Of a stretch of DNA of 47,323 nucleotides, positions 8,694-9,880 are shown one piece after another. A model generated the notes under the pieces. It was not told the origin of the DNA, made no database searches, and worked only from the letters and a program-made list of their open reading frames with translations. Position numbers and translations under genes: made by a program. How positions within the stretch are numbered: the first letter of the stretch is position 1; each line of letters starts with the position of its first letter. This DNA is from an uncultured bacterium (GTDB lineage: Bacteria; Cyanobacteriota; Vampirovibrionia; Gastranaerophilales; Gastranaerophilaceae): the NCBI GenBank assembly GCA_947428835.1, contig CANENE010000014.1, positions 1 through 47,323 of the forward strand, in the 5' to 3' direction.

Positions 8694-9008
8694 TTAGTGT
8701 GCTAATTTTAGACCAACGGTGCCTAAAATAATTAATAGAATCGAGATAATCTTTAAAAAACTTACAGATTCATGGAAAAATATCATTCCAACGGTGCTAA
8801 CCAATAATATACCAAAAGCACACCAAATTGCATAAGCGATACTCATATCAACCGTTTTGAGGGTGAATGATAAAAACAAAAAACAAAGCACATAGCCTAT
8901 AATTGTTCCAATTGAAGGTAATAATACGGAAAACCCGTTTGACATTTTTAAAAGTATTGTGGATATTGTCTCAAAAATAATTGCAAGTATCAGATAAAGT
9001 CAACTCAT
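8694..9008 (-). pseudogene. SMR-family multidrug/EmrE-like transporter, interrupted by TGA at codon 3
   Basis: From the ATG at 9008, preceded by AAGGAG, the reading is M-S-TGA-LYLILAIIFETISTILLKMSNGF and so on, 104 codons in all, the normal SMR length. The TGA (9002-9000) sits where many SMR proteins have Trp (MSW...). Everything after it is intact: the essential TM1 glutamate (AIIFE), the YAIWCAFG motif and four helices ending GTVGLKLAH. An 83-residue ORF remains from the internal ATG at 8945, but it lacks the essential Glu and the first helix and has no ribosome site. The gene is a recent nonsense mutant, a read-through case or a sequencing error. TGA acts as a normal stop elsewhere in this window. 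Confidence 0.75.
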
Positions 9009-9323
9009 ATATAATCTCCTTTTTTATAAGAATAGCAGTTAGTTATTTAAATAAAAACACTAATGCGGTTGTTGTCAATTTGAAAATTCTGTGCGTAATG
9101 GAGATTATAAAAAAATTTATATTATAAAATTATTTTTTGTCTTGTTGTTTGGTATACAAAAATTTTTTAAACTTTAAATTTGCATATTTTTTAAAAATAA
9201 GCAAATCGGAACTTATACTTGTTGATGCAAGTTTCGTAAAACAGTTAGATTTTTATGTGTTTGCAAATGCATACAATTATTCGAGGCTGATTATTAACAA
9301 ATATAAATATTATTATCTTAATA

Positions 9324-9352
9324 TTGACAAATATATTTACATGACATATAAT
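9324..9352 (+). promoter_or_regulatory. Perfect sigma-70 consensus promoter of a candidate sRNA
   Basis: TTGACA (9324-9329), a 17-bp spacer and TATAAT (9347-9352) match consensus at all twelve positions. No protein gene follows on the plus strand before an intrinsic terminator at 9425-9457. Confidence 0.7.
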
Positions 9353-9358
9353 TTTTAT

Positions 9359-9458
9359 ACAAATTTGAATTAATTTTATAAGTTATTACTTTTTCATAAC
9401 TTCAAGCTATTCTTAATTCCAGACAGCCCGATAAGATATCTGTTTTATCGGGCTTTTC
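9359..9458 (+). ncRNA. Candidate small RNA of about 100 nt
   Basis: The start is predicted 7 nt after the consensus -10 and the end is set by the intrinsic terminator. The transcript would contain a first hairpin (AAGTTAT / ATAACTT, loop TACTTTTTC) near 9379-9401, a single-stranded middle (CAAGCTATTCTTAATTCCAGAC), and the terminator stem. It contains no plausible ORF. It does not resemble 6S, SRP, tmRNA or RNase P RNA in length or motifs. The 518-bp stretch 9009-9526 otherwise shows no supported gene. A trans-acting sRNA is the simplest reading. Confidence 0.55.
9425..9457 (+). terminator. Intrinsic terminator of the candidate sRNA
   Basis: AGCCCGATAA (9425-9434) and TTATCGGGCT (9445-9454) form a 10-bp stem with a 10-nt loop, followed by TTTTC. 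On the minus strand it could also end transcription coming from the gene at 9880-9527, but the T-run is better on the plus strand. Confidence 0.8.
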
Positions 9459-9526
9459 CATAAATCAAAACTAAATGGTTAAACAATTTTATCAATATTC
9501 TCAGTTGTAATATTTGCACTTCTACA

Positions 9527-9880
9527 TTAATCTATAATCTTGAGTTCAGCTTTATTAAAGAAATCGCTTATAGTCTCTCCCATTGTTTCTTCTTGATATG
9601 GCTCAATAATAGCTGTTATTTCTCTTGTTTCTTCGCCTTTTTTTATTTTGGCAGAAATATTGCCGTGCCCATCGATACAGCCATACTCAACTTTAACAAT
9701 TACATTATTTTTGCATTTATTTGCAAGACTATCCAACATTCGCATATTTACATCAAAGGCAGCCTCTGTCCGAGGGTTGCTGTCGGAAAGATACTTAATG
9801 CTTTGTTGAGTCTTTTCGTCTTTTGAATAACTTGCGCCTTTAAACGGCAGCATTGCAGCAGAAATTTTGCTAATTTGCAT
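9527..9880 (-). CDS. Small lineage-specific protein with MQISKIS...PFKG N-terminus
   Basis: 117 residues, not recognised. The N-terminus MQISKISAAMLPFKGASYSKDE is short and polar and ends in an F-K-G motif, like the NFGG at the start of the protein at 26879. The rest looks like a small alpha/beta domain (VIVKVEYGCIDGHGNISAKIKKGEETREITAIIEPY, an antiparallel sheet by pattern). There is no signal peptide or membrane segment. The gene is isolated and converges with the candidate sRNA. No function can be assigned. Confidence 0.6.
   Translation of the reverse strand: MQISKISAAMLPFKGASYSKDEKTQQSIKYLSDSNPRTEAAFDVNMRMLDSLANKCKNNVIVKVEYGCIDGHGNISAKIKKGEETREITAIIEPYQEETMGETISDFFNKAELKIID

Follow-up and report, generated by a model that had tools for sequence, protein, structure and literature searches.

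What is transcribed from a perfect promoter that stands alone in a gap between genes? In the window, by which is meant the whole stretch of 47,323 nucleotides that was analysed, an earlier note made from the letters alone had picked out such a site and proposed a candidate small RNA (sRNA) with a consensus promoter and an intrinsic terminator. The explanation that best joins the evidence described below, and one that is probably correct, is that the locus encodes a trans-acting antisense sRNA. It would be one of the three family copies that a model search found in the window's own genome (G000, an assembly 97.7% complete), and it would act on the start of the mRNA for a protein of roughly 95 residues.

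The locus in the window

The promoter is as perfect as was claimed. Its two hexamers, 9324-9352 with the 17-nt spacer, match the consensus at 12 of 12 positions, and it is the sole perfect site in the 47 kb. The terminator also stands, with a stem of 13 pairs in the predicted fold (Table 1). Its tail consists of only about four T residues (CTTTTCC), while that of the paralogue on C1 reads TTTTTT, and because the tract is so short, a simple scan asking for five T in eight bases missed this terminator. The RNA from 9358 to 9460 (103 nt) folds with a z score of -4.54 relative to its shuffles, none of 200 being as good. Convergent coding on the far side was confirmed as well, in the form of a 117-aa open reading frame (ORF). 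The gap itself had been given as 518 bp and in fact measures 581 nt between the two flanking ORFs, 8694-8945(-) and 9527-9880(-). A 78-aa ORF at 9137-9373(+) overlaps the promoter and was given no weight, on composition alone. The locus has its own promoter, an intrinsic terminator, no ORF, and independence from its neighbours, the features by which a trans-acting antisense sRNA is recognised. Another recurrent feature of these genomes is a set of short proteins whose N-terminus bears an FKG/FKAG/FTG-like motif (LPFKG in the 117-aa ORF); many are divergent to the sRNA.

Table 1. Features of the sRNA locus and its surroundings, in window positions
Feature	Position	Strand	Basis or remark
-35 hexamer TTGACA	9324..9329	+	sequence; same in paralogue G000:C1
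-10 hexamer TATAAT, 17-nt spacer	9347..9352	+	sequence; same in paralogue G000:C1
Putative sRNA transcript, ~100 nt	9359..9458	+	ends predicted from the positions of the -10 and the terminator
Extra 5' leader, missing from canonical family members	9359..9388	+	predicted fold partly masks the core
Family core CTTTTTCATAACTTCAAGCTATTCTTAATTCCAGACAG	9389..9426	+	sequence comparison; species-specific extra A is 9398 or 9399
Predicted seed 1, pairing with Shine-Dalgarno (SD) and AUG of target mRNAs	9389..9404	+	pairing profile
Predicted seed 2 (CUAUUCUUAAUUCC), pairing at or upstream of target SD	9407..9420	+	pairing profile
Intrinsic-terminator hairpin, short T tract	9425..9458	+	fold; stem 9425-9437/9442-9454
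Convergent 117-aa ORF, N-terminal LPFKG motif, without Pfam match	9527..9880	-	context only
Small multidrug resistance-type protein upstream, transcribed away	8694..8945	-	PF00893, 9.3e-19; context only

Strong expression, which the earlier note had expected, is what such a promoter suggests. How available the RNA would be for pairing is another matter. In the predicted fold of the window copy, leader and core pair with each other (9367-9373 with 9413-9419 and 9380-9386 with 9396-9402), leaving the two seeds partly masked, with predicted unpaired values of 0.55 and 0.41; the leader may, in this model, mask the core. The C1 paralogue has part of its leader in common with the window copy, and its lowest-energy fold is different.

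To which family does this RNA belong? None had been recognised at first reading, and none was found in Rfam at gathering score over the whole window. The best match below threshold, rli38 (RF01470), reached 26.4 bits, and since this is far below the gathering score of 49, the likeness is taken as chance. Rfam has no model that fits this RNA family, which had not been catalogued before.

An RNA family of Candidatus Gastranaerophilales

A DNA search of 58 genomes showed that a short block, about 9370-9426, recurs in most relatives, the best rows having 77-95% identity. Sixty-five loci were fetched and read and 59 were aligned, leaving out L063-L065 (no full core), L042 (contig end), L053 (a variant), and L050 (a duplicate). 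One unit runs through the fetched loci: a promoter comes first, then the core AATCTTTTTCATACTTCCAGCTATTCTTAATTCCA(GACAG), and last a terminator, which has different letters from copy to copy. Over its length of about 35 nt the core hardly varies; the terminators and neighbouring genes do. The earlier note had named loss of promoter and stem in close relatives as a sign against the sRNA. As for the promoter, its perfect form is indeed lost, relatives using a palindromic box and TATAAT instead, while the RNA itself is kept.

How far does the family reach? From 26 of the 59 copies, hand-picked for diversity (28 core columns are invariant in these 26), a model of 48 positions using sequence only was made. 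With E<=0.01 as the limit, it matched the core in 367 of the 383 sampled genomes (96%) of the order, Candidatus Gastranaerophilales, and in 299 of the 306 of good quality, with 1 to 8 matches per genome. Nine of the 16 genomes without a match belong to family f3, whose tenth member has a weak one (E 0.007). Across 146 genomes sampled from the whole class, strong matches all fell in family f1 (52 among the matches listed). Weak matches outside the order, at E 7e-4 to 0.007, came from 8 of the 94 genomes other than those 52, and they are taken as chance because the terminator unit was not found in the four that were examined (L198-L201). At least 112 contig stretches match the family, with Candidatus Gastranaerophilales, Melainabacteria, and cyanobacterium among their titles; one contig titled Acinetobacter is taken for a mislabelled bin. 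The comparison shows an autonomous unit of predicted promoter, core, and terminator, spread order-wide in varying gene contexts, and so the candidate sRNA of the earlier note gains support from a core and terminator that recur across the order.

Copies of the usual form are simple in design, and their transcripts would measure about 60-75 nt. A rule-based scan found a hairpin and T tract in 161 of 166 distinct canonical copies, and a longer hairpin could be seen by eye in four of the remaining five. Their C/U-rich core is predicted to be single-stranded, with its two halves unpaired at 0.98 and 0.92. There is also a natural short copy, L196, in which the terminator follows a core cut down to its first part. 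Two sRNA copies lie 1.2 kb apart in L138 (3330-3357 and 4500-4527), and G101 has eight matches, several of them degenerate, a pattern that would fit local amplification and decay. The stretch L065 (G000:C4, about 149970-150112) shares only TCTTAATTCCAGACAG, followed by a hairpin and a T tract, and is perhaps a half-core relative.

What drives transcription of the canonical copies? Ahead of their -10 lies a palindromic box, TACCC-N4-GGGTAATTG. A stretch with at least 9 of its 14 fixed letters is present in the preceding 90 nt in 149 of 161 canonical copies (about 6% of shuffled stretches), and 132 of the 161 have a box of at least eight letters placed 24-42 nt ahead of the core. Reading across two separate tables, the commonest box-core and -10-core distances shift together, the box staying about 25 nt from the -10. 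A search of 117 genomes for the exact box gave 15 sites, and the reversed-pattern control gave none. Nine of these sites precede a standard core (L209, L210, L212-L216, L219, and L220) and two a variant core (L206 and L207); with most exact sites placed before the core, the box seems nearly dedicated to this sRNA family. Of the others, L208 and L218 are unrelated, and L217 is similar to the additional box next to an sRNA in L170. In L211, what follows a perfect box at 1500 (-) is an unrelated stretch that has a CCTCC motif and a terminator; the same regulator may control a second RNA there. The canonical copies would be switched by a DNA-binding regulator acting at the box.

The third copy in G000 lies at C12:8931-9007. 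The window copy and its C1 paralogue (G000:C1:122612-122746) lack the box, and both have the perfect sigma-70 promoter, a form of the sRNA seen only in G000. The two agree in their hexamers, in parts of the leader, and in the core, while much of the spacer and terminator letters differ; because C1 keeps both hexamers amid this divergence, the promoter in the window appears to be more than chance. Both copies would have exchanged box control for a consensus sigma-70 promoter, which would keep the sRNA in steady supply.

Another setting for the core is viral. Two viral contigs (L253 and L254:7378-8950) carry the same stretch, in which the core, up to TTAAT, stands immediately at a helicase gene's stop codon and is followed by a GC-rich hairpin and a T-rich tail. 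Neighbouring genes encode a second helicase, a primase, an endolysin, and a reverse transcriptase. A small phage protein has an NNFQPTFG motif, and similar motifs in the window's relatives hint that the host belongs to the Gastranaerophilales. The arrangement is likely that of a phage-borne 3'-end sRNA. In prediction, the phage core comes close to the canonical one in binding the targets described below (-20.0 vs. -20.7), while binding by the variant core of L206 is poor (-11.6). On a further viral contig, L255, a core match lies beside an SSB-like gene, and a terminator was not found.

A predicted target at the start of a 95-residue protein

Which mRNAs might such a core recognise? In 27 genomes of the window's genus, the complement pattern TGGAAGTATGAAAAAG, with up to two mismatches, occurs at 197 sites, sRNA genes included, and the reversed pattern at 84. 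Twenty chosen sites were fetched and examined for target candidates. There is no general energy excess over start regions, the first percentile being -21.6 vs. -21.2 (sd 0.9, 60 shuffles). Starts do hold a modest excess of 9-mers from UAUGAAAAA (56 vs. 25; 6 of 200 shuffles reach this). An extra AAG before TATGAAAAAG yielded nothing notable in G004 and G045, among the matches listed. A TolC-like gene has a similar complement site in two loci.

Two candidates were rejected. An M48 metalloprotease gene showed good single-site pairing (L107/L096), but just 4 of 45 family genomes have it. The second candidate encodes a secreted protein of 92 aa, and 10 fetched loci of the genus have AAGTATGAAAAAG at its start. 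It occurs in 6 of 107 genomes; the complementarity is not fully kept in L247, L248 (the window's genome), and L249, and within the genus the whole upstream region is conserved. In L225-L234 and L245-L246, TAATAT lies very near the ATG in this strongly conserved region, and the mRNA may be leaderless.

After these other candidates failed, matches in the window's own genus led to one predicted target, a signal-peptide protein of about 95 aa with two hydrophobic stretches and a WPGIGQ motif. Its gene was found in 69 of 146 genomes. The protein has no Pfam match, and NCBIfam LlsX came up at E 0.057, below the cut-off. Is the pairing more than composition would give? As RNAduplex values, which take no account of accessibility, and with start codons chosen by rule and orthologues that are mutually related, the first 30 orthologues gave a mean of -20.7 vs. 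-14.1 (sd 1.23) for shuffled cores, with none of 300 reaching it. The controls were -11.2 for 740 general start regions, -13.2 for 68 MK-start genes with an SD, and -7.9 and -13.4 for stretches flanking the site in the same orthologues. Leaving out the discovery genus (n = 23) made little difference (-20.6, 0/300, z -5.7), and a second, independently fetched f1 batch (n = 30) gave -17.4 vs. -12.9 (0/300, z -4.6); in that second fetch, 38 of 39 orthologues were used, L324 having given no start region. Cores of 39 or 40 nt were used, and the energies differ slightly accordingly.

The broadest comparison took 53 of the 60 f1 orthologues, keeping genus g31 and dropping the seven from the discovery genus. 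It gave -18.8 vs. -13.4 (sd 0.98), with 0 of 2000 dinucleotide-shuffled cores reaching this value (z -5.5), and the reversed core gave -13.0. For 30 control gene families of four or more members, z averaged -0.42 (sd 1.22), the lowest being -3.4. Conserved complementarity to mRNA start regions was found, then, for one gene family.

The pairing is not found everywhere. There was no excess in the f2/f4 orthologues (n = 4, z -0.4), from four genomes of which three carry the sRNA, and the f3 orthologues (n = 4) gave z -1.4, with 27 of 300 shuffles reaching this. Nor was there an excess in eight orthologues of g31 (L307 and L309-L315), in which the gene seems to lie closely behind another, with no clear SD and with the pairing lost. 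The gene is missing from half of the genomes, and g31 and f2/f4 do not pair, so this target by itself cannot explain why the core is so invariant. With the sRNA near-universal and the gene in 69 of 146 genomes, further targets are likely.

Where on the mRNA would the core sit? The pairing profile, like the insertion and phage-core comparisons, covers 52 of the 60 f1 orthologues, the eight of g31 being left out. In 90-98% of them UUUUUCAU is paired with the AUG and the codons that follow it; pairing of CUUCC and UUAAUUCC with the SD region is less frequent, at about 50-80%. Pairing over both the SD and the start codon of the mRNA for this membrane-type, presumably envelope, protein has computational support, and it would block ribosome binding. 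The window copy pairs more weakly with the average other orthologue (-17.2).

That copy carries a peculiarity of its own. An inserted A (CATAAC) occurs in one of 383 family genomes, G000, at both the window and C1 copies. The target gene of G000 itself, whose leader lies on C3 upstream of 24883, reads GGGAAGUUAUG, where several relatives read GGAAGUAUG, and the inserted A matches the extra U. On this target it improves pairing from -23.1 to -27.8 for C1 and from -19.6 to -24.3 for the window copy, a gain of 4.7 kcal/mol; when 97 distinct single insertions were compared, the best came out no more than 0.1 ahead of it. With 51 other orthologues, the extra A makes pairing slightly worse (-19.9 vs. 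-20.7). The U is shared by the target in L276, and among the 383 family genomes the altered sRNA was found in G000 alone; because L276 has the U without it, the matched change counts as one supporting event. The insertion would track a one-base change in the genome's own target.

Rival readings, known systems, and meaning

Could the conserved core mainly bind a protein or another RNA, as a sponge or the ligand of an RNA-binding protein, with pairing to the 95-aa mRNA a minor matter? Usual antisense seeds are shorter than the nearly invariant 35 nt or so seen here. The sRNA is also far more widespread than its one target, start regions show no general excess, and Hfq was not found in G000. These points give the idea some substance, but the specific pairing in 53 orthologues, the matched insertion, and the natural truncated copy that keeps only the first part of the core all argue against it, and it is rather unlikely.

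The remaining readings fare worse against the arrangement of the loci. A cis-acting leader or attenuator of a downstream gene might be suspected from the same-strand ORF found within 150 nt in 31 of 126 copies with a called downstream ORF. In 72 of these 126, however, the next ORF is convergent, as it is in the window, the upstream ORF points away in 102 of 129, and neighbours differ from copy to copy; the sRNA unit is thus no leader, and this reading, very improbable, is close to refuted. A conserved DNA element, such as an attachment or regulator site, would account for a short stretch strictly conserved at many locations, but not for a promoter before the core and a terminator of unrelated letters after it, nor for a core that stays while the promoter type changes. 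The phage core, placed at a helicase stop codon with its own terminator, likewise makes that idea unlikely, and little credence is left for it. What of chance, a promoter-like site and a hairpin meeting in AT-rich DNA? Shuffled windows are expected to hold 0.12 perfect promoters, and 11 of 100 held at least one; the T tract is short, too. The conservation of the family nevertheless refutes chance, and the paralogue has the same hexamers, so that next to nothing speaks for coincidence.

The trans-acting antisense sRNA, the preferred reading, has parallels in well-known systems. The enterobacterial envelope sRNAs RybB and MicA pair near the start sites of envelope protein mRNAs. They are Hfq-dependent and differ in sequence; here, in contrast, a search for the Hfq (PF17209) that an Hfq-dependent sRNA calls for was positive in 5 of 14 control genomes and negative in G000. 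Rfam holds models of LhrC and Yfr1, and the letters of the Yfr motif differ from those of the core. In Listeria, the LhrC siblings are described, in the part of the account drawn on here, as pairing with the SD region of mRNAs through a CU-rich loop and lowering surface proteins under LisR (PMC5880928). The likeness lies in several sibling copies per genome, three in G000, with C/U-rich single strands that in computation pair with the SD region, and in dedicated transcriptional control, LisR there and a putative box-binding factor here. The differences from that description are the phylum, the targets, and an unpaired 5' core in place of the CU-rich loop. No LhrC-type family appeared in Rfam scans of the window or of 9300-9480 at E<=5, and the sRNA may work like the LhrC siblings without being a member by sequence. 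In cyanobacteria, Yfr1/Yfr10 and Yfr2 resemble the present family, as far as the excerpt cited describes them, in being near-universal in a group of cyanobacterial lineage with one short invariant motif, and the surroundings of Yfr10 vary (PMC6778093). The Yfr1 motif is there single-stranded between two stem-loops, unlike the canonical form here, an unpaired 5' end with a terminator (PMC6778093). Membership in Yfr1 is not indicated, there being no Rfam match and canonical copies being predicted unpaired up to the terminator.

A wider picture can be offered only tentatively, as a possibility with more doubt than confidence attached: an order-wide, Hfq-free control of the envelope, in which a near-invariant sRNA would work under a dedicated regulator, with compensatory tracking of its target, species-specific constitutive rewiring, and a phage copy that reprograms the envelope of the host. 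For these relatives of cyanobacteria, which are uncultured, non-photosynthetic, and live in the gut, searches of the open-access literature found no description of a regulatory RNA. Into this setting comes an RNA family in 96% of 383 order genomes, for which a target is predicted and which shows a promoter signature, a rewiring specific to one species, and a copy in a phage. It would provide a concrete case of an sRNA and its target changing together, and of a phage carrying the core of a host sRNA.
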